Origin: a virus
Reading direction: 5' to 3' (one strand)
Virus record (IMG/VR): IMGVR_UViG_3300032323_000879
Span: 1-31,112 of that record
Length of the DNA stretch: 31,112 nt
Part shown: one piece after another, positions 15,832 to 31,112 of the stretch
Numbering within the stretch: position 1 is the first letter of the stretch
Layout of the letters: each line of letters starts with the position of its first letter
The notes under the pieces: model-generated
Databases searched by the model: none
Told to the model about the DNA's origin: nothing
What the model saw: the letters and a program-made list of their open reading frames with translations, nothing else
Program-made: the position numbers and the translations under genes

Positions 15832-18800
15832 ATGACATTAAAGGTCTATAACTCAGATCCATATTTTGATGACTATAGCAACGATAAAAAGTTTTATCGT
15901 ATTCTATATCGTCCAGGCGTTGCAGTTCAAGCGCGTGAACTTACACAAATGCAGACTATTATTAATGAGCAAGTTGCTCGTTTTGGTAGACATATGTTTG
16001 AAGAAGGCGCAATGGTTATTCCAGGTGGAACAACTATTGATTTAGAATATGGTTATGTAAAGATTAACGATTTAGCTCCTAATGGTTCTGATGTTGCAAC
16101 ATATGTTGATGAATTTATTGGAACAACTATAACTAGTCAAACTTCTGGATTGAATGCTAAGGTTGTTTCAGTTACTCCAGCTACTAATACGGATCCAATT
16201 ACACTATTTGTTAAATATAGTGATTCTGGTACAAATAAAACAACTAAAACATTTGCTGCTAATGAAATTCTTTTGTCGGATGGCGTAAATATTCGTGAAT
16301 GTCAGATTAGATCAGCGATTGATAGCGTAGGTTTTGGTTCTGCAGTTTCAGTTGCACGAGGTGTATATTTTGTTTCAGATATGTTTGTTTTAGTAGAAGA
16401 TCAAACAATCATTTTAGAAAAATATAACACAACTCCAACATATAAAGTTGGTTTTACGATTAGTCAAAATATTATAACGTCACAAATTGATCCAAGCTTA
16501 AATGATAACGCTAATGGTTCTCCAAACTATGCTGCTCCAGGTGCACATCGCTATAACATTAATTTAGTATTATCAAAAAGAGCATTAACTGCTGATACTG
16601 AAAACTTTGTTCAGATTATGCAAGTTGAAGATGGTGTTATTCGCTCAAAAGTAAATGCAACACAATATTCTGTTATTGAAGAAACTTTGGCTCGTAGAAC
16701 GTATGACGAATCTGGTAATTATACAGTTAAGTCATTTAATATCGAAGTTCGTGAGCACTTAAAAAATGGCGACAATCGTGGTATATTTACTGCAGCTAAT
16801 GGTGGACTTGAGTCTAAATTAGCTATTGGTATGGAAGCTGGTAAAGCATATGTTCGTGGATTTGAAATTGGAACATTAGCCACTAACTATATACCTGTCG
16901 ATAAGTCACGTGAATTTTCATCTGATAACAACGTTGCTATTCCATTTAACCTTGGTGCATTTGTAAATATTACGAATTTGTATGGTGCACCAAACATTAC
17001 AACATTCCCAATTGTTTCATTAAGAAACGCTACAGTTAGCGTTGGTGGAACTGCTCCTGGAACAGAAATTGGTACTGCGCGAGTTAGAGCAATTGAACAT
17101 TTCTCTGGAGTATTAGGTAATTCTGCAGCAACATACCGTTTCTTCTTGTTTGACATTAGGATGAATAGTGGACAAAACTTTTCATCTGTAAGAGCAGTTT
17201 CTGTAGCTGGAACTCCTCCTACTACAGCTAACATCATATTAGATTCTGGAAATGCAGTTCTTCAAGGAACTTCTGCAAATAGTTTATTAGTACGTATGCC
17301 ATACGATGTTATTAAAACTATTCGTGGTATTGGTGGTACTATTGATACTAACTACTCAGTTAGACGTGTTTACACAGGTTCATTATCAAACGGACAAGTA
17401 CAATTAACTGCTGGTGTTAATGAACAATTTATTACTCCGTATTCTAGTCGCGACTTTTTAATGGTTCGCAATGATAATGGAGCAATCATTAATCTTGATT
17501 CAGCTTATACTGGTCTTGGTGGTGGATCGCGTGTTGTATTATCTGGTACTCCAAATGGTAAAAATATTCTTATTAAGTTAGATGACCTAGGCTTAACGAC
17601 GCAAGCATTTACATTAATCGCAACAATTTATAAACAAGAAGCGATTGAAAAGCAAAAAACATTAGTAAGTGATTTTAACTTTAATATTACTTCTCCAAAT
17701 ACAACACCTGGCAACTTTGATTTGCTTAACAAAGCAGACATTTATAAACTAAAAGCAGTTTATATGTCTACTAGTATGAGCGTTAACGCAACAACAACTA
17801 GTCAAAATGTTACAGATCGTTATCAATTAGATGATGGACAGCGCGATAACTTCTATGACATTGGACGTATTACGCTTAAGACTGGTCAACCGGCTCCTTC
17901 CGGACGCTTATTAGTTGTGTTTGACTATTTCACACATGGTGCTGGTGATTATTTCTCAGTAGATTCATACACTGGTCAAATTCCATATGATGATATTCCA
18001 GTTTATCAATCGCGCTTTGAGTCATTTGCATTACGCGATACATTAGATTTCCGTCCAAGAGAACGTGATGATGGCACATCATTTGTCAACGACGTTGGTA
18101 ACAATATTACTGGTGCGTCTTTAGTTGAAATTCCACGTATTGGTGATAATATACGTACAGACTTTGACTTCTATTTGGCACGTATTGATAAGATTTACTT
18201 AGATGCTAAAGGTAACTTTGGTGTAGTTAAAGGTGTTTCATCATTAACACCTAATGCACCTAAAGATCCTGATGACGCAATGGTTTTATATGAAGTAGCT
18301 CTTAAACCATATACGTTTGGACCACAAGACGTTATTCCTACGCTAATTGATAATCGTCGTTACACAATGCGAGACATTGGCCGTTTAGAACAACGTATTA
18401 AGAACCTTGAGTATTACACTTCTCTTTCATTGCTTGAAAAAGAAACTGCTGACTTACAAATTCTCGATAATAACAATATCGATAGATTTAAGAACGGATT
18501 TATCGTAGATCCATTCTATGGACATAATATTGGTAATCCTGGTGATCCAGATTATTTTATTTCGATTGACGCTGAAAGAGGCGAAGCTCGTCCTCAGTTT
18601 TATGAAGATACAGTACGTTTAGATTATAACGTAGCAGCTTCTTCTAATATTCAAAAAACTGGTGATGTATTAACATTACCATACACTGACGTAACGTTTA
18701 TTAACCAAGCATCAGCTTCTCGCACTGAATTTGTTAATCCATTTGACGTAATTAGTTTTATTGGCATTATGGATCTTTCACCTAGTTCAGACGATTGGAA

Positions 18801-21141
18801 AGATACTGAATCACGTCCAGAATTGATTGTTGATAATCAAGGATTATTTGATGTTGTTAACTTCCTCGCTGATGAATCTGGTGTTCTTGGCACAGTGTGG
18901 AATGAGTGGCAAACTCAATGGACTGGTCGTTCATTAACAAACAACACTACAATAGCTTCTGGTGGAAATTGGTTACAAACTACTACTAACGTAATTGAAA
19001 CTATTCAATCGTCTGAGGCGCGCGCAGGTATTCGTACTTCGGTAGCTCCTGATACAATTCAGTCTTCTCTTGGAGAACGTGTTGTAGACGTACGAATGAT
19101 TCCATTCATTAGATCAAGAAGAGTTAAGTTTAAAGTAATAGGTCTTAAACCAGATACAAGAATGTATCCATTCTTTGAAAGTATTCCAGTTTCTGATTTC
19201 TGTAAACCGTTAACATCATTTGAAAGATTTTCTGATGTTCCAGTTGATGCAGAACCAAACACTAGTGCAATTCGTCATCCTGACTTAACAGCAACTGATA
19301 TCACTAATGGATTGAATGCTTTAGTATCTAATTCAGCAGGTGAATTAATTGGTGAATTCTATATTCCAAATACTAGTGCTGTAAGATTTAGAACTGGTGA
19401 TCGTACATTCCGTCTATCAGATGACATTAACAACAACTTTGACTTGGCTACATGTTCAGCACAAGCTGTTTATACTGCTAGTGGTATTACAGAAACACGT
19501 CAAGAAGTTTCTTTGCGCTCACCGCAACTACAACAAACAACTATTTCTGAAACACGCACAGTAACTAACTCACGACTAATCAACACATTTGTTAATACTG
19601 AATTCTGGGATCCATTAGCACAAACATTCTTGGTTGACAAACCAGGTGGTGTAATGATCACTAAGGTTGATTTATTCTTTGCTGAGAAAGATGCTAACAT
19701 TCCTGTTACAGTACAAATTCGTACTGTTGATAATGGCTATCCAACAACAACTATCGTTGGTTTTGGTCAAGTTACATTACCAGCTTCACAAGTTAATACT
19801 TCAACAGATTCAACTGTTGCAACAACATTTACATTCCCAGCACCTGTATACTTAAATCAAGGTCGTGAATATTCTATCGTTGTTTTAGCAAACTCACAAG
19901 CATATAAATTGTGGATTGCTCAATTAGGTGAAAATGAAGTTGGTTCTACAAATAGAATTTCTAAACAACCAACGACCGGCGTATTATTTAAATCACAAAA
20001 CGGTTCTACTTGGAACGCTGATCAGATGCAAGATATGAAATATAAATTATATCGTGCATCATTTAATACGAACGTAAAAGGCACATTAGTTTTAAATAAC
20101 GCAAATATTCCATTACGTAAACTATTTGATAATCCAATTTACACAACTAATAATAGTAATATTGTTCATGTATTCCATAAAAATCATGGTATGCCTTTAA
20201 ACTCTAAAGTTATCATTAGTGGAGTTAATGCAGCTGTTAATGGAATTCCAGTTGCGCAATTAAACACAACTCAAACATTAACTGCTGTTGAGCAAGATTG
20301 GTACTCATTTGTGGTTTCAACAAATGCAAATGCTACTGGTAACTCTGGTGGTACTGCAGTTTATGCGACTGAGAATAAGTGTATTAATATTCTTCAACCG
20401 AGCGTATCAGCAGTTCAATTCCCAGATACTAGAACAACATGGGGACTACGTTTAACAACATCACAATCATTAGCTGGAACTGAAGCAGCCTATACATTAG
20501 ATGGTGCAAATGATTACCGTCCTGCAATTTTAAATGATAACTATCTTACAGATCGTCCGTATATGATTGCTTCTACTATCAATGAAAATGATAGGTTGGG
20601 CGGTACACGTTCATTCTGGTTAAAAGGTGAATTTACAACCACTGCTGATAACGTTTCTCCAATGGTTGACTTAGAACGTATGTCAGCAATTTGCGTTGCT
20701 AATCGAATTGATGATCCACAAGCTATTGGCGGTGGCGCAAGTGGTAAAAATCAAGTGAGAAATTTCGTTTCTGAATTATCACCAGTTGGCGCTTCATCAT
20801 TGTGCAGATATATTACTCGTAAAATTACTATTGATCAAGCAGCTACTGCATTAAAGATTATCTTCTCAGCAAATCGCCCAGATGGTTCAACAATTGAAAC
20901 CTATTATAAAGTTCAAGCACCTGGTTCAGATCAAAGATTCGAAGACTTACCTTGGGTTGCTGCAACTGGTCAAATCATTCCTTTAACTACTGAGAATACT
21001 TCAACATTTAAAGATTATGAGTATCTCAATCAAGGATTAACACCATTTACTTTATTAGCAGTTAAGGTTGTATTAAAATCACAAAACTCTTCTAAAGTTC
21101 CACGTATACGTGATTTTAGAGTGATCGCATTAGCTACATAA
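15832..21141 (+). CDS. large DUF4815-type tail/baseplate structural protein
   Basis: 1769 residues, the largest gene in the window. The N-terminus (NSDPYFDDYSNDKKFYRILY, then RPGVAVQARELTQMQTIINEQ and IPGGTTIDLEYGYV) is the DUF4815 signature of marine T4-like phages. A conserved block in the middle (about 700-900: LDFRPRERDD, YTMRDIGRLEQRIKNLEYYT, then LLEKETADLQ) resembles the region that contacts the baseplate. The rest is beta-rich and ends in a compact fold. It likely sits at the baseplate periphery and connects to fibres, taking the place of T4 gp10-gp12-type proteins; that role is inferred. A ribosome binding site AAGAAAG (15819-15825) precedes it. Confidence 0.75.
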   Translation: MTLKVYNSDPYFDDYSNDKKFYRILYRPGVAVQARELTQMQTIINEQVARFGRHMFEEGAMVIPGGTTIDLEYGYVKINDLAPNGSDVATYVDEFIGTTITSQTSGLNAKVVSVTPATNTDPITLFVKYSDSGTNKTTKTFAANEILLSDGVNIRECQIRSAIDSVGFGSAVSVARGVYFVSDMFVLVEDQTIILEKYNTTPTYKVGFTISQNIITSQIDPSLNDNANGSPNYAAPGAHRYNINLVLSKRALTADTENFVQIMQVEDGVIRSKVNATQYSVIEETLARRTYDESGNYTVKSFNIEVREHLKNGDNRGIFTAANGGLESKLAIGMEAGKAYVRGFEIGTLATNYIPVDKSREFSSDNNVAIPFNLGAFVNITNLYGAPNITTFPIVSLRNATVSVGGTAPGTEIGTARVRAIEHFSGVLGNSAATYRFFLFDIRMNSGQNFSSVRAVSVAGTPPTTANIILDSGNAVLQGTSANSLLVRMPYDVIKTIRGIGGTIDTNYSVRRVYTGSLSNGQVQLTAGVNEQFITPYSSRDFLMVRNDNGAIINLDSAYTGLGGGSRVVLSGTPNGKNILIKLDDLGLTTQAFTLIATIYKQEAIEKQKTLVSDFNFNITSPNTTPGNFDLLNKADIYKLKAVYMSTSMSVNATTTSQNVTDRYQLDDGQRDNFYDIGRITLKTGQPAPSGRLLVVFDYFTHGAGDYFSVDSYTGQIPYDDIPVYQSRFESFALRDTLDFRPRERDDGTSFVNDVGNNITGASLVEIPRIGDNIRTDFDFYLARIDKIYLDAKGNFGVVKGVSSLTPNAPKDPDDAMVLYEVALKPYTFGPQDVIPTLIDNRRYTMRDIGRLEQRIKNLEYYTSLSLLEKETADLQILDNNNIDRFKNGFIVDPFYGHNIGNPGDPDYFISIDAERGEARPQFYEDTVRLDYNVAASSNIQKTGDVLTLPYTDVTFINQASASRTEFVNPFDVISFIGIMDLSPSSDDWKDTESRPELIVDNQGLFDVVNFLADESGVLGTVWNEWQTQWTGRSLTNNTTIASGGNWLQTTTNVIETIQSSEARAGIRTSVAPDTIQSSLGERVVDVRMIPFIRSRRVKFKVIGLKPDTRMYPFFESIPVSDFCKPLTSFERFSDVPVDAEPNTSAIRHPDLTATDITNGLNALVSNSAGELIGEFYIPNTSAVRFRTGDRTFRLSDDINNNFDLATCSAQAVYTASGITETRQEVSLRSPQLQQTTISETRTVTNSRLINTFVNTEFWDPLAQTFLVDKPGGVMITKVDLFFAEKDANIPVTVQIRTVDNGYPTTTIVGFGQVTLPASQVNTSTDSTVATTFTFPAPVYLNQGREYSIVVLANSQAYKLWIAQLGENEVGSTNRISKQPTTGVLFKSQNGSTWNADQMQDMKYKLYRASFNTNVKGTLVLNNANIPLRKLFDNPIYTTNNSNIVHVFHKNHGMPLNSKVIISGVNAAVNGIPVAQLNTTQTLTAVEQDWYSFVVSTNANATGNSGGTAVYATENKCINILQPSVSAVQFPDTRTTWGLRLTTSQSLAGTEAAYTLDGANDYRPAILNDNYLTDRPYMIASTINENDRLGGTRSFWLKGEFTTTADNVSPMVDLERMSAICVANRIDDPQAIGGGASGKNQVRNFVSELSPVGASSLCRYITRKITIDQAATALKIIFSANRPDGSTIETYYKVQAPGSDQRFEDLPWVAATGQIIPLTTENTSTFKDYEYLNQGLTPFTLLAVKVVLKSQNSSKVPRIRDFRVIALAT

Positions 21142-21354: not shown

Positions 21355-22428
21355 ATGGCATTAATTCTAATTGAAGAAGATGATACCTTTAATGAATGGC
21401 GTCTTAAGAATAATGATTTAGGCACATTTGTTGGCGATAAAGATAACTTAGGTACTACCGCTAAAGTTATTGTTAACGCTATTAACGAAATTCGTTCAGG
21501 TTTTATTGAAGGCACATTAACAACTTCATCTAGTGTTTTTAGAGTACAAGTAGATACGCCTGACGCGCATGAACTTATATTAGATGCTTCAGGTAATTTA
21601 ACTGTAACTGGTCAAATGAATAGTACTCAGTTTAATGGTCCATTAGTTGGTAATGTAACTGGTAATATTAGTGGTAACTCCGGTACTGCGACTATTTTAC
21701 AAACTACTAGAAATATTGCTTTAACTGGTGATGCAGCGTGGAACGTAAACTTTAATGGTTCTACTAACGTAACTGGTGCATTAACATTAACTAATAGTGG
21801 TGTTGTTGCTGGAACATACACAAAGATAACTGTTGATAGTAAAGGCAGAGCGACAAGTGGAACATTGCTTTCTTCTGCAGACGTTACTACTGCCTTAGGA
21901 TATACACCTTGGCATGCTGGTAATGATGGTTTAGGTTCTGGTTTAGATGCTGACTTATTGGATGGATTCGTTTCTTCAATAGCTGCTACAGCAAACACAG
22001 TTCCAGTGCGTGATGGTTCCGGCAATATTACAACAAACGTGTTTATTGGTACTGCAACTTCTGCTCGATACGCTGACTTAGCTGAGAAATATTCAACTGA
22101 TGTAGAATATAGTGTTGGTACAGTTGTTATTGTTGCTGGTCCAGAAGTTGAACAAGAAGCAACTGCTTCTACGACATTTGGTCAATTAACATTAGGTGTT
22201 ATCTCTGAAAAACCTGCGTATCTAATGAATGCTGAATCAGTTGGTCAACCAATTGCACTTAAAGGCCGTGTTCCAGTTAGAGTTGTTGGAGTAATTGTTA
22301 AAGGTCAACCAATCTCTGCGTCTAATACAGTTGGTTGCGCAACATATGGCCAAGTTAATACGATTGGTATTGCTTTAGAAACTAATATGGATTTAGAAGA
22401 AAAGTTAGTGGAGTGTTTTATTAAGTAA
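21355..22428 (+). CDS. tail-fibre-like protein
   Basis: 357 residues. It has a short N-terminal attachment region (about 1-45), then Gly/Asn/Thr-rich beta repeats (GNVTGNISGNSGTA at about 99-112; GALTLTNSGVVAGTYTKITV, then DSKGRATSG), the common fibre motif LDADLLDGFVS (197-207), and a C-terminal domain beginning SARYADLAEKYSTD (236-249). That ADLAEKY domain caps many phage fibre proteins and may act as a trimerisation or intramolecular chaperone module. The likely role is host recognition or a fibre segment. It is followed after one base by the accessory modification block. Confidence 0.75.
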   Translation: MALILIEEDDTFNEWRLKNNDLGTFVGDKDNLGTTAKVIVNAINEIRSGFIEGTLTTSSSVFRVQVDTPDAHELILDASGNLTVTGQMNSTQFNGPLVGNVTGNISGNSGTATILQTTRNIALTGDAAWNVNFNGSTNVTGALTLTNSGVVAGTYTKITVDSKGRATSGTLLSSADVTTALGYTPWHAGNDGLGSGLDADLLDGFVSSIAATANTVPVRDGSGNITTNVFIGTATSARYADLAEKYSTDVEYSVGTVVIVAGPEVEQEATASTTFGQLTLGVISEKPAYLMNAESVGQPIALKGRVPVRVVGVIVKGQPISASNTVGCATYGQVNTIGIALETNMDLEEKLVECFIK

Positions 22429-22429
22429 T

Positions 22430-22939
22430 ATGATTACTCATGATGAAGTTGTAGAGTTTCTCCACAACCCTTTGGCATACGAACAAAATCTAGTTTCAAA
22501 GATAAATTCTAAGGGGGAGCAAATCCTCCTTAGTTCGTTTAAAGATCTGTATGATAGTGAACCACGCAGCATTAAGATCGAAGGCATGGAAAGATTCTCA
22601 AAAAATGTTTGGGAAAAATGCTTAGAATATGGAAGAATATATAATCATATAGGACCAGTGACGTGTCATGTTTTCTTTGCATATGAAAACTCTCCATCAT
22701 TTGATATGCACACTGATCCAGACGATGTTATAATATATTGTTGTAGTGGCAAAAAAACTATGATAATTGATAATAAACATCATACTATAAATGAAGGTGA
22801 AAGTGTTTACATTCCAGCAAATACTTTTCATCAAGCCTTAAATGAATTTGCTGCAGTAACTTTAAGTTTTGGTTTAGAAAAATTTTTGAAAGATAAAGCT
22901 ATTAATTATGAATTGGGCATTATATCTAAAGACTACTGA
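22430..22939 (+). CDS. JmjC/cupin-like Fe(II) oxygenase
   Basis: 169 residues with a double-stranded beta-helix pattern. Candidate Fe(II) ligands are H94 and D96 in DMHTDPDD (an HxD motif) and H134 in YIPANTFHQALN. Strands IIYCCSGKKTMII and the EGESVYIPA turn fit JmjC-type 2-oxoglutarate hydroxylases that act on protein or peptide side chains. It is short compared with cellular JmjC enzymes, so a metal-binding cupin without hydroxylase activity is the alternative. It overlaps the first radical SAM gene by 32 bases and follows the fibre gene by one base, so the two functions are probably linked. Confidence 0.6.
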   Translation: MITHDEVVEFLHNPLAYEQNLVSKINSKGEQILLSSFKDLYDSEPRSIKIEGMERFSKNVWEKCLEYGRIYNHIGPVTCHVFFAYENSPSFDMHTDPDDVIIYCCSGKKTMIIDNKHHTINEGESVYIPANTFHQALNEFAAVTLSFGLEKFLKDKAINYELGIISKDY

Positions 22940-23966
22940 AACATGCAATTTAAATTGCAAGCATTGTTTTACTAATGGTACCAATGGTCCTAAAATATTT
23001 TGGGATACGAAGAAAGTTACAAATTGGTTAACACGATTCCTTCAATACGTTCAAAAAGACGATATAGTTCATTGTGAATTTCATGGGGGAGAACCATTCT
23101 TAGTTCCAGTATTTCAAATGGAGCAAATGTTTGAAGAATGCAATCATTTACATGAAAACGTTTCATGGGGAGCTACATCTAATTTAGTATTCAAATTATA
23201 CGATGAGCACATTGATCTTATAAAAAATAAATTTAATTTTAGAATAGGTACTTCTTGGGATCCAAAAATTCGTTTTGCTAATAATAAACAATATGAGTTA
23301 TGGCATAAAAACATAAAAACGCTATTATCACATGGTATAACAATTAAGCTTTTTATTAGTGTTACTCAAGACACATTAGACATTGAACCAATCGTATTGC
23401 TAAGATGGATACGTAGACTAGGCGTTCAAGAAGTTTCATTTGAAAGATTAACTAATAATGGTAATGCAAAGCTTTATCCTGACATTTTTCCAAAAAATAT
23501 AGAGCAGGATAAATGGTTCTTAAAAATGCATGAACAAATTGTTAAGTATAACACTAGAAATTGGTTTTCAAATGAATTCTTTGAAACGATTTATGCTAAA
23601 TTTGAGTCAGGTTTTATAAAAGGTTCTACATTCTGTAGAGATTGTGAAGAAAAGATTCTTACATTAAATGCAAATGGATCTATATCTGGTTGTCCAAATT
23701 CAGCACCTGAATTTCAGTTTGGACATATAGATGATAAGATTGAAGATTTAATGTCGTCTCCAAAAAGAATAGAAAACATTGCGTGTGAAAGAAGTAGAGA
23801 TCCTAGATGTTATAGTTGTGATGTATTTGAATATTGTGGAGGTGACTGCCATCAATTGCAATGGCAAGATGATATATGTGGTGCACCAAAAAGTTTAATG
23901 CGTCATTTGTCAACTCTTACACATAAAAAGACTGTGATAAAAATAAAAAGCATCCCCCATGTTTAA
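22908..23966 (+). CDS. radical SAM/SPASM protein maturase A
   Basis: 352 residues. The radical SAM cluster motif C13-x3-C17-x2-C20 (TCNLNCKHCF) and the GGEP SAM-binding motif (60-63) define the TIM-barrel domain. A C-terminal SPASM domain (about 240-330) has Cys at 243, 246, 262, 301, 304, 310, 314 and 324, with LTLNANGSISGCP and CxxCx5CGGDC, enough for auxiliary [4Fe-4S] clusters. SPASM enzymes such as anSME, AlbA and PqqE modify peptides or proteins. It starts inside the oxygenase gene and overlaps the next radical SAM gene by 8 bases, implying coupled expression. The substrate is inferred to be the CHxS-tailed protein at 24971. Confidence 0.88.
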   Translation: MNWALYLKTTETCNLNCKHCFTNGTNGPKIFWDTKKVTNWLTRFLQYVQKDDIVHCEFHGGEPFLVPVFQMEQMFEECNHLHENVSWGATSNLVFKLYDEHIDLIKNKFNFRIGTSWDPKIRFANNKQYELWHKNIKTLLSHGITIKLFISVTQDTLDIEPIVLLRWIRRLGVQEVSFERLTNNGNAKLYPDIFPKNIEQDKWFLKMHEQIVKYNTRNWFSNEFFETIYAKFESGFIKGSTFCRDCEEKILTLNANGSISGCPNSAPEFQFGHIDDKIEDLMSSPKRIENIACERSRDPRCYSCDVFEYCGGDCHQLQWQDDICGAPKSLMRHLSTLTHKKTVIKIKSIPHV

Positions 23967-24960
23967 TGCATATGAGCGTTATGGTGATCCATATAAATTA
24001 GTTGAATTTAGAATGATGATATTGAATCATTGTTCTATGGATTGTCGTGGTTGTTTTTATAAAAGAACAGATAATAATTTTAATGATTTTTCTTCAGCCT
24101 ATAAGTTGGCTGAAGATTTAGTTAATAACGATTATAAACTTGAAACGTGTTATTTACTTCCAACTGACATTTTTGATAATCCAGACAATTATAAGTTATT
24201 AGATAACAAAGACTTTCAAAATACATTAAAGATGTTTTCATACGTTGGAATTGCATCAACAATAGAAACTGAGTTTGATCATAACTTTTTTGAACTTATT
24301 AATAATATTAGCGCAGAATTAAAAATTGAATTGCAAATTAATTTATTAATTGCAAAACTCTTTGACATAAATTATCAAATTATTTTAAAAAGTAGAATTA
24401 AAGCTATTAAAGAAAAATACGGAGATAGGATAGTTATTAACTTAGCAATTAATACGGGATTTTCATTAAGCAATAATGAAAAGGAAAAACTAAAGTCTTT
24501 AATTAGCTTTTTATCAGATGATGAAATAATAGAACTAAATTTTACTTTCTTATATAATAAAGAAATATCTTTAGATAAAAAGAAAAATATGTTAAAAGAA
24601 AGCATAAAAATCATTAATGAATTTGGTGATTTTTATGAATCAAATAATGAATTCAAAACAAAATATAATAATAGAACATTATTAAGAAAACCAGCTTTTT
24701 CCTTTGTTGGTAATCCAAATAGAATATATTTAAATCCTATTATACCATTTGACGAATATGTGTATATTGATGATGCAGCATTTTTAGTCGACGGGACAAC
24801 ATATGATGATTTTTTAAACACATATGGACAATTGCAAGATATAAATAGTACAATATTAGACAAGTGTAATAACTGTGATAATCTTAGTCATTGTCTTGGT
24901 AAAAGTTATTTTACAATTGCAAATAAATTCGATTTAAAATGTTTTATGGATATAAACTAA
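23959..24960 (+). CDS. divergent radical SAM protein, short C-terminal Cys set
   Basis: 333 residues. The radical SAM motif is C25-x3-C29-x2-C32 (HCSMDCRGCF). No GGEP-like motif is obvious. The C-terminus has C303-x2-C306-x5-C312-x15-C328, probably one auxiliary cluster, which is smaller than a full SPASM domain. The middle is Lys/Ile/Asn-rich. It is coupled to maturase A by an 8-base overlap and is immediately followed by the CHxS-tailed protein. The protein at 28900 shares the same Cys layout (x16 instead of x15), so the two form a distinct subfamily here. Exact chemistry unknown. Confidence 0.75.
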   Translation: MFNAYERYGDPYKLVEFRMMILNHCSMDCRGCFYKRTDNNFNDFSSAYKLAEDLVNNDYKLETCYLLPTDIFDNPDNYKLLDNKDFQNTLKMFSYVGIASTIETEFDHNFFELINNISAELKIELQINLLIAKLFDINYQIILKSRIKAIKEKYGDRIVINLAINTGFSLSNNEKEKLKSLISFLSDDEIIELNFTFLYNKEISLDKKKNMLKESIKIINEFGDFYESNNEFKTKYNNRTLLRKPAFSFVGNPNRIYLNPIIPFDEYVYIDDAAFLVDGTTYDDFLNTYGQLQDINSTILDKCNNCDNLSHCLGKSYFTIANKFDLKCFMDIN

Positions 24961-24970
24961 AGGGCTTTTT

Positions 24971-25600
24971 ATGGCTAGTGCTGGTAATTTAGTAACTAAA
25001 CAAACTATTATTAATGATTTTTTCGCTACTGTTATAGCACCAGCTCCAAGAGCAAATGCTTGGCACAAAGCTAACATTCCAACATTTAATTCTGCGTTCA
25101 GTGGTGCTTGGGGAACATTTGACCATAGGGTAACTGTTACTCCTTTTTCAATTATAGGTGCTACTACTCCGTCTGGAACTGTTGTAGATGTTTTAACGGA
25201 ATCGACGACTGGAATGTCTGCTCCTTCACAAGCTGATTTAAATACGATTAATATAACGGCAAGTAATATTGTTTCTGTATTAAGAAATTATGCGTATAAT
25301 ACTTCTCGTGTTAGATTAGTTCGCGCTGGAATATATTATAATAATACGACATATGGCGGAAGTGGAGTTTTTAATGAGCAAGTTAATTATGCGCATTTAA
25401 ATGATAATTACCTACGAACTGAACCGTTGAATGTCGCAGGTCCAGTAGTAAACCAAACTATCATTGCAACTCAACTTGATAATTTTTATAGCTCACTTAG
25501 ATCTGCAGCAAACACTGACACATATGGTGATATTTTAGATTTACGCATATGTCATCAATCATGTCACTATTCATGTCATAGTTCTAGAGGAAGAAGATAA
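24971..25600 (+). CDS. small structural-like protein with C-terminal CHxS repeats (putative modification substrate)
   Basis: 209 residues. The first 190 are Ala/Thr/Asn/Ser-rich and beta-like, resembling a phage structural or fibre-tip subunit, and contain no cysteine. All three cysteines lie in the C-terminal repeat CHQSCHYSCHSS (194-205), followed by a basic RGRR end. The repeats are [C-H-x-S] three times, so the tail also reads as three His-x-Ser units, like the targets of the bacterial His-Xaa-Ser (Hxs) radical SAM systems. It lies between two pairs of radical SAM genes. I infer that it is their protein substrate, with the tail as the modified core. A metal-binding tip is the alternative. 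AAGGG (24960-24964) precedes ATG 24971. Confidence 0.7.
   Translation: MASAGNLVTKQTIINDFFATVIAPAPRANAWHKANIPTFNSAFSGAWGTFDHRVTVTPFSIIGATTPSGTVVDVLTESTTGMSAPSQADLNTINITASNIVSVLRNYAYNTSRVRLVRAGIYYNNTTYGGSGVFNEQVNYAHLNDNYLRTEPLNVAGPVVNQTIIATQLDNFYSSLRSAANTDTYGDILDLRICHQSCHYSCHSSRGRR
25550..25585 (+). repeat. three tandem 12-bp repeats encoding CHxS
   Basis: Units at 25550-25561, 25562-25573 and 25574-25585 each encode Cys-His-x-Ser. The Cys codon is TGT in all three; His is CAT, CAC, CAT; the variable residues are Gln, Tyr, Ser. The mix of silent changes and kept residues suggests selection at the protein level. Confidence 0.85.
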
Positions 25601-26659
25601 ATGTTTCACCTATTTAATTCAGTCTATATAGACTTTGATTTTTGCTTTGAGCCAATGGGTAAGGATTTTATATTAGCATCTGATATTTTTGGTAGTATGC
25701 CAATGGTAACAGTGCAGAACAATGAGGCGTATAAATCTCAGCCTTCATTTGAAGATTTAATTAAAGAAAGTTTTTCTAATAACAAAGAACTCTTATGGAA
25801 AAACTTAATTAATAGATCTAAAAAAGTTGTTTTATATGTAAAACCTGAAAAATTATATGAACTACAAATTGAGTTTTTAAAAAGTGTGTTTGAATATGCT
25901 GAATGCAAAGATTTATATAAAATACATGTTTCATTTATTGAAAGCATAAGACTAAGATCGTATTATGAAGTTCGTGATAAAGATTCTCGTAAGCAAATAA
26001 TTTTAAACACAATTCACCCATTACAATATGCACAGTTTGAAGAAATTTATAATAACACGGAGATATCTAAGACGTTGCAAAGGGTAGATAAAACTGCTTT
26101 ATCTTTTGAATACTTATTAGCAGATTACTTATACAATTCTTCAACAAAATATAAACATGCACTATTATCTAAAATAGAAGTTATGACTTGGGATAATTGG
26201 TTAGATGAATTAGAACAATTGAAATATGAAATCATATTTGGTTCATTAAATTTGAATCGCATAGACCCAAATTTAAGTTTAGAGATCGGTAATATTGAAG
26301 AACAATTGTCAAATAGTGATACATTAAAATGGGCCGTTGATCGTAACTTTACACACAATAGAAAATATATAAAATCTACATACGATTATAAAACGTTTGA
26401 TCCACTATGGAAAGACATATATGAAATATACTCCGGTCAAGAAAAAATGGATGATTTGAACGAATTGATTAATACAAATCAATACGAAAAACTACTTTGG
26501 CGTGACATTGATAGGGGTTTTGGTTGCACATACACCGGTGAAATGTTTAAAACTAAATCTAACCACGTATTTGCAACGTATTGTTACACCGTAGTTAAAT
26601 CAGAAAATAAAGATGAATTAGCACCATTTAGATTAGATGATACAAGTAATCAAAGTTGA
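25601..26659 (+). CDS. unknown protein of the radical SAM block (352 aa)
   Basis: 352 residues starting directly at the base after the CHxS gene's stop. I recognise no domain. It has a FCFEP segment near the N-terminus, a helical middle rich in Lys/Glu/Leu (about 45-125), a HPLQYAQFEE stretch, and an aromatic C-terminal part (LLWRDIDRGFGCTYTGEMF, about 302-320). There is no cluster-type Cys motif and no membrane segment. It overlaps the next oxygenase gene by 23 bases. Its tight linkage suggests a leader-binding, scaffold or chaperone partner of the maturases, but that is position-based inference only. Confidence 0.65.
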   Translation: MFHLFNSVYIDFDFCFEPMGKDFILASDIFGSMPMVTVQNNEAYKSQPSFEDLIKESFSNNKELLWKNLINRSKKVVLYVKPEKLYELQIEFLKSVFEYAECKDLYKIHVSFIESIRLRSYYEVRDKDSRKQIILNTIHPLQYAQFEEIYNNTEISKTLQRVDKTALSFEYLLADYLYNSSTKYKHALLSKIEVMTWDNWLDELEQLKYEIIFGSLNLNRIDPNLSLEIGNIEEQLSNSDTLKWAVDRNFTHNRKYIKSTYDYKTFDPLWKDIYEIYSGQEKMDDLNELINTNQYEKLLWRDIDRGFGCTYTGEMFKTKSNHVFATYCYTVVKSENKDELAPFRLDDTSNQS

Positions 26660-27071
26660 GATACCAGAAACATTATTAAATTTAGTTGATAATTTTGATG
26701 ATGATGGTTTAAGAGATTTCCTCGGTGCATTTAATTACACCGAGGAATTTCAGTCTTGGGCTAGACGATATATTGTATTTGATAAATTAGTAAAAAATTG
26801 GATTAACTATACTAAGTACGATCTTGTAACTGATAATTCTTTCACATGGCATGACGATATACATAGAAAAGGATCTACTTTAGGTATATTATGGTTAGAT
26901 GGTTCTATTGGATATGGTGGTGATCTTTTAGTCATGGATGATAATTGCGAAATACATCGCATAATATTTGAACCAAACACACTAATTATTATGGAGAATA
27001 AATTCCCGCATAAGGTAGAACATTATTTTGGAAGTGAACCAAGAGTTGCGTTGAATTTTACACTAAAATGA
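26637..27071 (+). CDS. 2OG-Fe(II) oxygenase, prolyl 4-hydroxylase-like
   Basis: 144 residues. Predicted facial triad: H72 and D74 in FTWHDDIHR and H125 in KFPHKVEHYF; R136 (GSEPRVALNF) is the expected 2-oxoglutarate anchor. Strands LGILWLDGS and GGDLLVMDD fit the P4H fold. Such enzymes are common near fibre genes in marine T4-like phages and hydroxylate protein side chains or small molecules. It overlaps the next radical SAM gene by 4 bases, mirroring the oxygenase/SPASM order at 22430-22908, although the two oxygenases belong to different subfamilies. Confidence 0.75.
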   Translation: MIQVIKVEIPETLLNLVDNFDDDGLRDFLGAFNYTEEFQSWARRYIVFDKLVKNWINYTKYDLVTDNSFTWHDDIHRKGSTLGILWLDGSIGYGGDLLVMDDNCEIHRIIFEPNTLIIMENKFPHKVEHYFGSEPRVALNFTLK

Positions 27072-28192
27072 ATATATTTACAAATGAGTTTAATGTTATC
27101 TATGTAAGAGTAGTACAGGGATGTAATTTAAATTGCACACACTGCTTTACATTAGGTAATAAAGATCCATATATGCTTACTAATATGACATATATAAAAG
27201 ACTTTTTATCTTCTATAAAAGATAATGTCGATCCTCAAAAGGCTACATTTTATATTCATGGTGGTGAAACATTCCTTGCGCCATTTTCCCATTTATCAGA
27301 AGTTAATAATACGATTAGATCCATTTTTCCGGAAATGAAAATGGATATTATACCCCAAACAAATTTATTGTATAATATTGATGATGAGTTTATAAAATTT
27401 CTTAAAGATGAATACAGATCTACAGTTGGAGTATCTTGGGATGCAGACATTAGATTTGGATCAATTGCAATTAACAAGAAAACTGATCAAGAAAATTTGT
27501 TTTTTAATAACTTAAAAACTTTACTACAAAATGACATTAAAGTGCATATATCAATTACTGCACAAAAGCATTTATTGAATTACGACCCATTAGAAATTGT
27601 AAAAATGTTTGATGGAGTAGATTCTATTGATTTTGAATTATTAACTACTTTTGACGAGCAAACGCGCAATTTAAAACCTAATAACAAAAAGTGGGCTATT
27701 TGGTTAGAAAAGATTGTAGATTATTATCAACATAATAAAACTACGTGGTGTTTACCTCAAATTGATCTTTTTACAAAAACACTATTAACTGGTAACCTAT
27801 TTGATTGTAAGTGTAATTGTTGCGATAAAAGAACATTCACATTAAACCCAAATGGTACTGTAGGTTTATGTCCAGATAAAACGTATGTTGAACCATTTTC
27901 AAATACTGAAGAAATGAGAAATAACTGGGATACGTTCCAAGAAAAATCATTAGATGTTATGATGAAAAAGCTTATAGAAATGGATCAACATACTATGTGT
28001 TTTACATGCGAGCATTACGACATTTGTGGAGGTAATTGTGACGCTAGTCTTTTCGATGAAACTGACGAGTGTCCATTATCAAAAAGCGTTATAAGTAAAA
28101 TAAGAAATAATAAAGAAGTATTCATAAAACTTTATGAAGAAAAAGCAAAAGTGAATTTAACTGAATTAAGGACGAATTATGAAATACATTAA
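27068..28192 (+). CDS. radical SAM/SPASM protein maturase B
   Basis: 374 residues. The radical SAM motif is C19-x3-C23-x2-C26 (GCNLNCTHCF), with HGGET (64-68) in the GGEP position. The SPASM region (about 245-340) has Cys at 247, 249, 251, 252, 268, 311, 314, 320, 324 and 335, with FTLNPNGTVGLCP and CxxCx5CGGNC. It is clearly paralogous to maturase A: shared CNLNCxHCF, HGGExFL, SWDxxIRF, NxNGxxxxCP and YCGG/ICGG blocks. It overlaps both neighbours (4 bases upstream, 14 downstream). It probably modifies a protein or peptide; the second copy may act on another residue or another substrate. Confidence 0.88.
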   Translation: MNIFTNEFNVIYVRVVQGCNLNCTHCFTLGNKDPYMLTNMTYIKDFLSSIKDNVDPQKATFYIHGGETFLAPFSHLSEVNNTIRSIFPEMKMDIIPQTNLLYNIDDEFIKFLKDEYRSTVGVSWDADIRFGSIAINKKTDQENLFFNNLKTLLQNDIKVHISITAQKHLLNYDPLEIVKMFDGVDSIDFELLTTFDEQTRNLKPNNKKWAIWLEKIVDYYQHNKTTWCLPQIDLFTKTLLTGNLFDCKCNCCDKRTFTLNPNGTVGLCPDKTYVEPFSNTEEMRNNWDTFQEKSLDVMMKKLIEMDQHTMCFTCEHYDICGGNCDASLFDETDECPLSKSVISKIRNNKEVFIKLYEEKAKVNLTELRTNYEIH

Positions 28193-28898
28193 TGCTGTTG
28201 CTCCAATAGCAATTGATCAAATTAAAGAATATTTCAAAGATAAGAATACACTATTTGTTATTGACTATAACGAAAGCAAACTACAAGATAAAGTGTTTTT
28301 AACATATCTTTCAAATTTAGATATACCGTGCGACATTAATCTTGATACTACACCTAAAGAAAAAGTTTTTCAATTGTTAGCCTCGTATGTTGATATTAAA
28401 AACATTTGCAATATACCTTTATTGAACGTAATGATAGCGGAAATTATTTTAAAATCCGTTGGTGTAAATTCTAATATTATTTTTTCTAAAGAATATTTTA
28501 CTAATGAAGAAATTTACACATTCATTGAAAATAATAGAAATAATCTTGTTAAATGGATTGATTTTATCGATTCATCAATGGTATTTTTACTTTATAGTTA
28601 TAAAGATTTAAATGAAAAATTAAAGGTTGAAGAATCGTTCCCAATCGTAGATGATCATAACTATGTGGGTTTAAATGTAGTAAATTTATTTAAAATTCCT
28701 GGATTTTTAGAATTATATTTTTCATCTACAAAAGAAGTTAAAATGCTTTACTTTAAACAACAATTTGAAACATACATGTTTAAAGGTAAAGCGTTCTTAG
28801 AATACTACAATAATAATGTTAATGTATTTGTTCCATTATTAGCAAAATTAATTAGTAAAGAATTACCATTAGAACCACAATTCGATATTGAGAAATAA
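28179..28898 (+). CDS. unknown protein of the radical SAM block (239 aa)
   Basis: 239 residues; ATG 28179 is preceded by AAGGA (28168-28172). It is hydrophobic and Asn/Lys/Ile-rich, with cysteines at 53 and 78 that form no motif, and helical stretches such as NIPLLNVMIAEIILKSVG (about 79-96). No domain recognised. It lies between maturase B and the second short radical SAM gene with minimal spacing, so it is part of the same operon. It might be an accessory or substrate-binding subunit; there is no direct evidence. Confidence 0.65.
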   Translation: MKYINAVAPIAIDQIKEYFKDKNTLFVIDYNESKLQDKVFLTYLSNLDIPCDINLDTTPKEKVFQLLASYVDIKNICNIPLLNVMIAEIILKSVGVNSNIIFSKEYFTNEEIYTFIENNRNNLVKWIDFIDSSMVFLLYSYKDLNEKLKVEESFPIVDDHNYVGLNVVNLFKIPGFLELYFSSTKEVKMLYFKQQFETYMFKGKAFLEYYNNNVNVFVPLLAKLISKELPLEPQFDIEK

Positions 28899-28899
28899 T

Positions 28900-30003
28900 A
28901 TGGATGCATATTTAGCTTCTGGAAGTTTAAACGAATCTAATACGTTTTATTTTAATTTAAACTTTGAATTATTAAATGGTTGTCAATTTAACTGTAAAGG
29001 TTGTCACGTCAATAAAAATGGTTCTATGCCAATTGACGATACTAGTTATGCGCAGTTACAAAAGATAATGAATTCGTTTACTCCAGAAAATTCATATAAA
29101 CCATTCATTGCGTTCATAGCTCCTACAGATTTCTTATCTGCAAATAATACATATTCAGTTTTAACTGATAAGCGTGTCATTGAAATTTTAAATAAGTTTA
29201 AAAGAATTTCATTTCAAACCACATATTTGGACATGTCTAAAGCTAGTTTAGTAGCTGACGTATTAAAAGATCATTACTCTAATATGGAGTTAGAAATTAA
29301 CGTAATTATTGAACCGGATAAAATCGAAAATCAAAAATATCTTAGCGTTCTTAAGAAACACCAAGATGAAATGATTGAGTTATTAAAATGGCCTACGAAA
29401 GTAAGATCATTTGGTATTATGAATGTATACGACTACGATAACACCAAATTAGCTCATATATTAAAAGATTATGATTACTTACATCAAAAAGTAAAACACT
29501 TATTCGAAACTACAATTGATTTTAATTTTTCACTAGGTAGAAAAGATCAAAGTTTAACTAAAGAAGAGTTTGAAGATGCAACGAAGAGAATTAAAAACAT
29601 GTTTAATAGTTCTCTAATATCTACTGAAAAAAGTGGTTATTTAAGATTTTCATTTGGTCGATTAAACGACTCATTGGTTGAACGCCAATACAACTGGAAA
29701 AATGGAGAGTTTTATTATTCTCCTCTTTTATATGAAAGATACGTATCATTTGTTGATGAACTTAAAATGCCTATTAATGACTACACTGCAAAAGAGTTTG
29801 AAGAGTTTGAACAGGATGTGCAATTACAACAATATCTCAACGTTTCAGACAAAACCGAATGTGAAGATTGCGCAATGTTAGGTTCATGCGTTGATCGTGG
29901 AATTTTACATTTAATGGATATTCACGGAATAAAAGATTGTTTAGTCGCTAAAGAAGCAATGAGCGTAGTTAACGTTATGGGTACACTCCCATATAATGAC
30001 TAA
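28900..30003 (+). CDS. second divergent radical SAM protein, short C-terminal Cys set
   Basis: 367 residues from ATG 28900, two bases after the previous stop; an in-frame TTG at 28888 lies within the preceding gene and is less likely. Radical SAM motif C28-x3-C32-x2-C35 (GCQFNCKGCH). The C-terminus has C321-x2-C324-x5-C330-x16-C347, the same unusual arrangement as the protein at 23959. A GGEP motif is not evident; IAPTDFL occupies the matching region, as LLPTDIF does in the paralogue. It is probably a radical SAM enzyme working with maturase B. It overlaps the next gene by 8 bases. Confidence 0.78.
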   Translation: MDAYLASGSLNESNTFYFNLNFELLNGCQFNCKGCHVNKNGSMPIDDTSYAQLQKIMNSFTPENSYKPFIAFIAPTDFLSANNTYSVLTDKRVIEILNKFKRISFQTTYLDMSKASLVADVLKDHYSNMELEINVIIEPDKIENQKYLSVLKKHQDEMIELLKWPTKVRSFGIMNVYDYDNTKLAHILKDYDYLHQKVKHLFETTIDFNFSLGRKDQSLTKEEFEDATKRIKNMFNSSLISTEKSGYLRFSFGRLNDSLVERQYNWKNGEFYYSPLLYERYVSFVDELKMPINDYTAKEFEEFEQDVQLQQYLNVSDKTECEDCAMLGSCVDRGILHLMDIHGIKDCLVAKEAMSVVNVMGTLPYND

Positions 30004-30694
30004 CTTAATTGATTTAGCGTATATTGACGATCTCGAGTATGCTAAAATTATATTATCATCTGGAGATTATTTTCCTGGATTCTATAGGTTTACTATGGGA
30101 ACTAGGAAATATGATCAAGGGCAAATGACAATTAGTGGTTTATTAAAGGCATATTTTAATCAACCATTAACGTATGGTGAATTGATGAACTATCCTTGCA
30201 AGCGATTAGAAGAACTTGATGATCGTTTAAAAGGTAGATCTGATTTAGCAGTTTATGAGTTACTTGATGAGAAGTATAAATCTTGGATGCTTCATGCAAA
30301 TGAATACGATTTAGTTTTATTAGAAAAACATAATCTAAAAGATTTAGAAGTTGATACAACGTATTTCTTTATGGGCGCACTAATACGGTTTACAAAAGAT
30401 TCAATTTTACTTGGTTATGATGATTATAGAAAAACTACAATTGAAACTATTAATGCCCCTTTTACATTTGTAAAAGATTATGTTTCAAAGATCTATAGTA
30501 ACTTTAGCGATTTGTTTATTCCAGCAGAAGTTATTGGAACTATTATAATTGATGAGTTAGTTACAATAGATATTGATATTAAAAAACTTTTAACCACAGA
30601 TAATAGTAACGTAGTATTTGGTTCTAATCGAGATGCATCAAAAAATCTTTCAATGCGTTGGGCTAAAGATATTTGTTTTTCGGAAATAGAATAA
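29996..30694 (+). CDS. unknown protein of the radical SAM block (232 aa)
   Basis: 232 residues beginning MTNLIDLAYIDD. It overlaps the upstream radical SAM gene by 8 bases and the downstream start by one base (ATAATGA). The N-terminal half contains FYRFTMGTRKYDQGQMTISG; the middle is helical and Glu/Leu/Asp-rich (about 50-115). There are only two cysteines and no motif. I recognise no family. Operon position is the only clue to function. Confidence 0.65.
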   Translation: MTNLIDLAYIDDLEYAKIILSSGDYFPGFYRFTMGTRKYDQGQMTISGLLKAYFNQPLTYGELMNYPCKRLEELDDRLKGRSDLAVYELLDEKYKSWMLHANEYDLVLLEKHNLKDLEVDTTYFFMGALIRFTKDSILLGYDDYRKTTIETINAPFTFVKDYVSKIYSNFSDLFIPAEVIGTIIIDELVTIDIDIKKLLTTDNSNVVFGSNRDASKNLSMRWAKDICFSEIE

Positions 30695-31089
30695 TGAATG
30701 ATTTTATTCGTAATGATAGTCATATAACTTCTTGCACTATAACTAATGTTAAATCTAATGGTGATGCAACTATTGAGTTTGCGCACTTTAAAGAAGCAAG
30801 ATATGATGTATCTTATATTGTCATTTATGAATATGAACATGAGTATTATTATCCTATGGTCTTAGAATATAGACTAATAGATAATAATATATTGTATTTA
30901 ACTGAAGAGTTAAATATAAAAACTGCTAGTGAGTTATTTAGAGTACTAAGTTCTTCTATGGAAAAGGAAGAGAAATGGACTAATGAATTTAAATTAGCGT
31001 TAGTACATTTAAAGAATAAACCTAAAAGATGTTTTAAACTTAATAATTTTATAGTTAATAATGTAGACACCACACACGTGTATGAGTGA
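30694..31089 (+). CDS. unknown small protein (131 aa)
   Basis: 131 residues from ATG 30694, whose first base is the last base of the preceding TAA; an in-frame TTG at 30673 would extend it into the upstream gene and is less likely. The N-terminal half is Tyr- and beta-rich (YDVSYIVIYEYEHEYYYPMV, about 38-57); the C-terminal half is helical and basic (KLALVHLKNKPKRC). No known domain. It continues the tightly packed block. Confidence 0.6.
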   Translation: MNDFIRNDSHITSCTITNVKSNGDATIEFAHFKEARYDVSYIVIYEYEHEYYYPMVLEYRLIDNNILYLTEELNIKTASELFRVLSSSMEKEEKWTNEFKLALVHLKNKPKRCFKLNNFIVNNVDTTHVYE

Positions 31090-31112
31090 ATTCCTAAGAC
31101 ATGTTCTAAAAG
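31082..31112 (+). CDS. start of a further gene (partial)
   Basis: ATG 31082 opens a frame (MSEFLRHVLK) that runs to the window edge and overlaps the previous stop (TGA 31087-31089) by 8 bases. The same overlap length occurs at two other junctions in this block, so it is plausibly the next gene of the operon. It is too short to identify. Confidence 0.4.
   Translation, partial: MSEFLRHVLK

Follow-up and report, generated by a model that had tools for sequence, protein, structure and literature searches.

A candidate radical-SAM maturation cassette for a fibre-associated protein in jumbo phages and Bdellovibrionota

We have analysed a stretch of 31,112 bases from the virus record IMGVR_UViG_3300032323_000879 of IMG/VR (the window), in which the tail-fibre gene is followed directly by an uninterrupted set of genes for radical S-adenosylmethionine (radical-SAM) proteins, putative Fe(II) oxygenases and a small protein, SUB, that ends in a Cys-His repeat, the CHxS tail. 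We consider it probable that this cassette is a phage-borne post-translational maturation system for SUB, which would be a fibre-associated protein. From position 22430 onwards the genes abut or overlap in the order given below, as the initial annotation had correctly described them; what it missed is that the window, a fragment of 31,112 bases, ends inside the cassette and that conserved partner genes lie among the enzymes. Relatives of the cassette were collected by scanning IMG/VR with rA, which gave 361 relatives; the rA-locus counts reported here come from the best 80 of them, and the 51 loci that extend 8.5 kb or more downstream are referred to as long loci.

22430 to 22939, plus strand: cupin/JmjC-like putative Fe(II) oxygenase with an HTD...H motif (Pfam Cupin_2, PF07883, E=1.8e-9), present in 51/51 long loci
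22908 to 23966, plus strand: rA, radical SAM/SPASM maturase with the motif CNLNCKHC (NCBIfam and PDB profile matches)
23959 to 24960, plus strand: rC, radical-SAM-like, with the motif CSMDCRGC and a C-terminal Cys cluster (invariant Cys)
24971 to 25600, plus strand: SUB, candidate substrate of 209 aa with the C terminus CHQSCHYSCHSSRGRR, a homologue of which is found in every cassette with enough sequence
25550 to 25597, plus strand: conserved tail [CHxS]3-R-G-R-R, SUB residues 194-209, presumably the core that is modified together with the recognition end (invariance in 160 distinct proteins)
25601 to 26659, plus strand: U1, conserved partner (phrog_36207), in 45/51 long loci
26637 to 27071, plus strand: OX1, 2-oxoglutarate (2OG)-Fe(II) oxygenase-like (PF13640, E=6.7e-4, below cut-off)
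27068 to 28192, plus strand: rB, radical SAM/SPASM, with the motif CNLNCTHC (NCBIfam matches; a relative in the Bdellovibrionota locus L328)
28179 to 28898, plus strand: Z, conserved partner (phrog_20767), in 51/51 long loci
28900 to 30003, plus strand: rD, radical-SAM-like, with the motif CQFNCKGC (phrog_31457; invariant CxxxCxxC)
29996 to 30694, plus strand: U2, conserved partner with a relative in the Bdellovibrionota cassette L328
30694 to 31089, plus strand: U3, small partner directly after U2, with 33% identity to the gene after U2 in the bacterial L328 (pairwise E=2e-21)

The most telling part of the cassette is the end of SUB, which reads ICHQSCHYSCHSSRGRR. All Cys, all His and three Arg of this tail are invariant across 160 distinct proteins, the x position is free, and the Ser positions hold S and sometimes N or A, within an alignment whose mean column identity is 21% overall. 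The codons of the tail vary (TGT and TGC, like CAT and CAC, are both common, and six Arg codons are used); since they are free where the residues are fixed, selection acts on the protein and not on a DNA repeat. At the sequence level such conservation excludes chance, and a fixed tail in a diverging protein is the signature that would be expected of a modified core plus a fixed C-terminal RGRR element. The general hallmark of ribosomally synthesised and post-translationally modified peptides (RiPPs), a ribosomal precursor with a conserved or variable core adjoining its modifying enzymes, is found here, and the SUB core also appears to evolve like a RiPP core, by repeat expansion and, in the bacterial versions described below, by core variants that all end in RGRR. 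The expansion is seen in L209 (7832-8515), where the core is enlarged to many CHSS, CHDS and CHSN units followed by SARGRR. SUB proteins are usually about 180-260 aa long. A second substrate class is short (124-140 aa), often occurs as tandem pairs with an identical tail, and lies after a fibre gene with several rD paralogues (L091, L104, L136, L153 and similar loci).

The tail and the enzymes are tightly linked. Of the rA loci, 75 extend 700 bp or more downstream, and SUB is present in all of them, adjoining rA in 69 and about one gene off in the other six; in the remaining five of the 80 the contig edge is reached. Radical-SAM genes that regularly lack a CHxS protein had been named as the observation that would count against the idea; what we find is a SPASM gene that is always accompanied by the tailed protein wherever enough sequence is available. 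The converse scan, for the DNA pattern of the tail alone and blind to the enzymes, gave at least 120 loci. Among the matches listed, a radical-SAM gene lies near 109 of the 114 SUB-bearing loci and the other five are mostly short or edge stretches; the two sets share contigs and are not independent samples. Four pattern matches (L115, L171, L181 and L191) were judged to be due to chance. With rF, a radical-SAM gene of the relatives, as query the tail was found in 67 of 80 loci, the rest being apparently contig or stretch edges except L426, a candidate for a substrate-less cassette that we rejected, as SUB is present there with the variant tail FCHSSCHYSCHSSCHGDGPGNGGGV. Composition is just as stable: the long loci contain rA in 51, rE and rF in 50 each and rG in 47 cases, and the number of radical-SAM enzymes per cassette ranges from four to seven, with four in most of them.

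The fibre setting is equally constant. In 68 of 75 IMG/VR loci a relative of the fibre gene lies 5' of the cassette, mostly no more than about 25 bp away. In the window, other tail genes besides the fibre gene were also identified upstream by PHROG search:

15832 to 21141, plus strand: large tail/baseplate-region protein of the phrog_358 family (PHROG, 1733 bits), with relatives 5' of the cassette in 42/51 long loci
21355 to 22428, plus strand: tail-fibre protein, directly 5' of the cassette (PHROG tail fibre matches, E=1.7e-20)

Among cultured phages, rA matches seven of 50,697 phage records, all of them jumbo phages: Burkholderia FLC6, FLC8 and SURPRISE13, Agrobacterium Atu_ph07 (two records), Sinorhizobium Phosso and Pseudomonas pPa_SNUABM_DT01. 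Searches by tblastn with rF and with Z retrieved the identical seven records and no others, so the parts of the cassette travel as one unit. BLAST of SUB itself against the cultured phages found nothing, because little except the tail is conserved; a hypothetical gene follows rA in all five loci read (SURPRISE13, FLC6, Atu_ph07, Phosso and DT01), and the four of its products that were translated end in VCHSSCHTSCHGSRGRR, FCHSSCHASCHNSRSRR, YCHTSCHASCHSSRSRR and ICHTSCHTSCHSARGRR. The BFVD matches of SUB are only other uncharacterised phage proteins, Atu_ph07 included. In Atu_ph07 the tailed protein is gp170 (the numbering was checked by gp215, the capsid protein), and the virion proteome determined by mass spectrometry includes one gene cluster of coding sequences (CDS) 170-215 (PMC6102473). 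The position of gp170 exactly at the edge of this cluster is the strongest published hint of a place in the virion, and we take it as suggestive. The Burkholderia phages with the cassette belong to a group described as phiKZ-related; radical-SAM genes have been annotated piecemeal as accessory in FLC6 and SURPRISE13 (PMC8066314, PMC11898562), and where radical-SAM or oxygenase genes appear in the papers on FLC6, SURPRISE13 and RP12/RP31, they are named one by one. Two dihydrofolate-reductase genes lie within the SURPRISE13 cassette (L004:18406-19583), and likewise in FLC6.

The cassette is not confined to phages. A scan of a genome collection (84,980 species) for the tail pattern gave 104 matches, most of which are chance GC-rich repeats; tails not at a stop codon were discarded, and the true tails are few and, besides apparent phage contigs in metagenome-assembled genomes, all are in Bdellovibrionota. 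Nearly complete cassettes are chromosomal in some of these bacteria (L325-L330, L346-L355), flanked, as judged by eye, by housekeeping genes (rpsT, acyl-CoA genes, cytochrome oxidase genes, an ABC-F gene); the contigs are 78-382 kb long and in one case 4,153,408 bases. In the sampled Bdellovibrionota genomes rA is found at E<=1e-40 in 16 of 291. The marine T4-like genomes that the initial annotation had proposed for a search are too narrow a setting, as the cassette occurs in Burkholderia and Pseudomonas jumbo phages, rhizobial jumbo phages and bacterial chromosomes too. The C-terminal half of the window SUB resembles the bacterial version (pairwise E=7e-11), and the bacterial tails are more varied, e.g., YCHGNFPPPCHGSRGRR and YCHSNHCSHSNHGSRGRR; those that were read have R[GS]RR as their end and lie beside Z. 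A Peptidase_S74 pilin-like protein, in most cases with an N-terminal prepilin methylation motif, was found near the cassette in nine of nine bacterial loci tested. Since the genomes of those nine contain only 2 to 19 S74 domains each, chance adjacency in all of them is very unlikely, even though the genomes are related. Fibre genes adjoin the phage cassettes and S74 pilins the bacterial ones, so the setting common to both is a fibre. A recent transfer from phage to bacterium as the sole source is not supported: most bacterial rA proteins fall into clades apart from the phage clade in a tree that was quick and has a very long outgroup branch and an unsure root, and this separation speaks against a single recent transfer. 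The bacterial cassettes (L325-L330, L346-L355) also adjoin a protein of ~195 aa ending in GRHWVK(V/I)K and a small protein of ~122 aa, and in some of them there is a B12-binding/radical-SAM protein of ~575 aa, identified by Pfam at L326:6571-8310 and by resemblance at L329:13568-15280.

As to the enzymes, the initial annotation had counted four radical SAM proteins, two full SPASM domains and two Fe(II) oxygenases. The CxxxCxxC motif is there in all four proteins, with rA and rB recognised by profile as well and rC and rD at the motif level. rA is above the cut-off for PF04055 (in the genome search) and rB near it, and for the SPASM domain TIGR04085 (cut-off 27) rA scores 36.2 bits and rB 24.8, slightly under. 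For rD the PF04055 score is sub-threshold (14.6 bits), its CxxxCxxC being invariant among relatives and accompanied by a C-terminal Cys cluster; rC had no match in the Pfam search, and its Cys25/29/32 and Cys303/306/312/328 are invariant in six relatives. Profile-profile comparison of rC and rD with rA or rF gave low probabilities only. The cupin stands as an oxygenase candidate, and OX1 remains a below-threshold assignment. The top NCBIfam profile of rA is PapB (59.7 bits against a cut-off of 340) and rB matches YhhB (59 against 445); none of the maturase or partner proteins scanned reached an NCBIfam equivalog cut-off. The PDB profile matches of rA are an anaerobic sulfatase-maturating enzyme (anSME, 4k37) and 5wgg. 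SPASM families mostly modify peptides or proteins, and the enzymes of the PapB, DynA and 5wgg type introduce crosslinks or oxidations at residues of peptides, in many cases at Cys; hydroxylation is the reaction of cupin and 2OG enzymes. For Z, considered as a possible RRE or PqqD-like leader-binding protein, the AlphaFold2 model (predicted local distance difference test score, pLDDT, 91) has an N-terminal beta-alpha-beta order, unlike a winged helix, and no PDB structure matched it at E<0.1.

Among known systems the closest in logic is the His-Xaa-Ser system (HxsA/HxsB/HxsC/HxsD; TIGR03979, TIGR03978, TIGR03977), which shares a short repeated His/Ser C-terminal motif beside at least two radical-SAM genes, and one cassette from a Bdellovibrionota assembly (L356) ends in CHSSHSSHSSHSSRGRR. 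The repeat described here differs in being Cys-His, with a period of 4 and an RGRR end, and it lies at fibre loci of viruses together with oxygenases and Z. We rejected membership in the His-Xaa-Ser system, as the scores are far under the equivalog cut-offs: rA against HxsB 33.3/370 bits, rF against HxsC 24.5/267.9, no HxsA match for the window SUB and 16 against 121.65 bits for its nearest variant, the L356 substrate, and no HxsD match among the partner proteins scanned, Z included. That substrate (L356:4310-4918, ending WCHSSHSSHSSHSSRGRR) bridges the CHxS and His-Xaa-Ser repeat types; its contig is short, has a fibre-like gene and may belong to a phage. With the SPASM maturases of ranthipeptides, sactipeptides and cyclophanes (PapB, DynA, the CteB-type 5wgg), rA and rB have the radical SAM/SPASM architecture in common, and their best profile matches are of that kind, without reaching any family cut-off (PapB, given above, is the best); in contrast to those systems, several distinct radical-SAM enzymes here share a cassette with a full-length, probably structural protein. 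anSME resembles rA as a SPASM enzyme acting on Cys/Ser of a protein, but the cassette encodes no sulfatase and the candidate substrate is unrelated. Peptidase_S74, the intramolecular chaperone of phage tail fibres, marks the fibre-like proteins and is carried by the pilin-like genes at the bacterial cassettes; it is an accompanying fibre feature and not a maturation system, and the window's fibre gene has no S74 match. Radical-SAM maturation of proteins and peptides is therefore known in kind, whereas neither an account of virion maturation by such a system nor a precedent for the phage-fibre setting was found in the open-access literature, subscription journals being mostly outside that scope, so that an earlier description is possible.

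In the mechanism that we propose, rA and the further radical-SAM enzymes (rB, rC and rD, with rE, rF and rG in relatives) would work one after another on the [CHxS]3 core at the C terminus, rA perhaps first because it is nearest to SUB and always present. Crosslinks involving Cys and possibly His would be the most likely product, and hydroxylations would come from the cupin and 2OG-Fe(II) enzymes. The nearly invariant [SA]R[GS]RR C terminus may be the recognition element for the enzymes, because it is kept while the core changes, and Z, because it is universal, may be a scaffold or substrate-binding partner. Matured SUB would then be associated with the fibre or tail, where it would stabilise the fibre or arm it for contact with the host. 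More tentatively, and with rather less confidence than in the maturation of SUB as such, we suggest a crosslinked and hydroxylated Cys-His tail on a fibre-tip protein, made by several radical-SAM enzymes and Fe(II) oxygenases, with the same machinery arming S74-type pilus fibres in Bdellovibrionota.

Expanded repeats and variable cores, as seen here, are what RiPPs typically show, the Cys-rich core is accompanied by SPASM enzymes, and the substrates of the second class are small and often paired; the tail modified by the cassette could accordingly belong to an effector peptide of RiPP type or a bacteriocin that the phage releases or injects, and not to a part of the fibre. We find this unlikely, since no leader-peptidase or exporter gene was recognised in the cassettes, the usual substrate is longer, and its gene stands next to fibre genes in the phages and next to fibre-like pilins with S74 in the bacteria; the Atu_ph07 homologue, moreover, stands at the edge of the virion cluster (PMC6102473). 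The maturation of a tail or fibre protein in a RiPP-like manner, as first proposed for the window, is supported by the linkage of tail and enzymes, by the seven shared records and by the S74 setting.

Phage spikes with metal-capped tips are known and Cys-His pairs suit metal binding, so the CHxS tail might be a metal-binding tip with Cys/His ligands, the enzymes modifying something else, such as the fibre or a small molecule. This would be a surprising outcome given that the tail is linked almost absolutely to several radical-SAM families and is replaced by other Cys/His cores beside the same enzymes, and that SPASM families chiefly modify peptides or proteins. Most improbable of all is that these are auxiliary metabolic or anti-defence genes merely travelling with the fibre gene, as their accessory annotation in FLC6 and SURPRISE13 (PMC8066314, PMC11898562) would have it: their order and composition are conserved across distant jumbo phages and bacterial chromosomes, and the tailed protein is always there. 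Several points weigh against the maturation of a fibre-associated SUB as well. The fold model of SUB is poor (pLDDT 71) and had no Foldseek match in the PDB; the radical-SAM assignment of two of the four window proteins (rC and rD) is drawn mainly from Cys motifs; and in the bacterial tailed proteins a signal peptide that could account for their reaching the pilus was not obvious by eye. The virion detection of gp170, finally, depends on a cluster boundary, and it stays suggestive because all three reported clusters span 46 CDS each, with boundaries that may have been set by a window (PMC6102473).

If the proposal is true, a structural protein of a phage would be modified by radical-SAM chemistry for the first time, as far as the open-access literature shows, and virus assembly would include a rare multi-enzyme chemistry that is sensitive to oxygen. 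The proposal predicts that virions contain new amino-acid chemistry, testable on the cultured Atu_ph07, FLC6, SURPRISE13, Phosso and DT01, and offers a function for many "hypothetical" jumbo phage genes. It would also link phage fibres with the fibre-like pilins of Bdellovibrionota, a phylum including predatory bacteria, through a shared, chemically finished contact tip.

Some details of the gene set remain to be mentioned. The nearest relative of the window in the rA tree (L013) has three further radical-SAM genes, rE, rF and rG, in addition to most of the cassette genes of the window; these three are therefore probably to be expected just past the window end. For rD, a TTG at 28888 is probably the wrong start and 28900 is preferred, because the relatives open with MDAYLAS. 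A small partner of ~140-150 aa, starting with MKEW or MKEY, recurs in phage and bacterial cassettes (L006:21088-21513, L347:7209-7670, L356:3891-4337).

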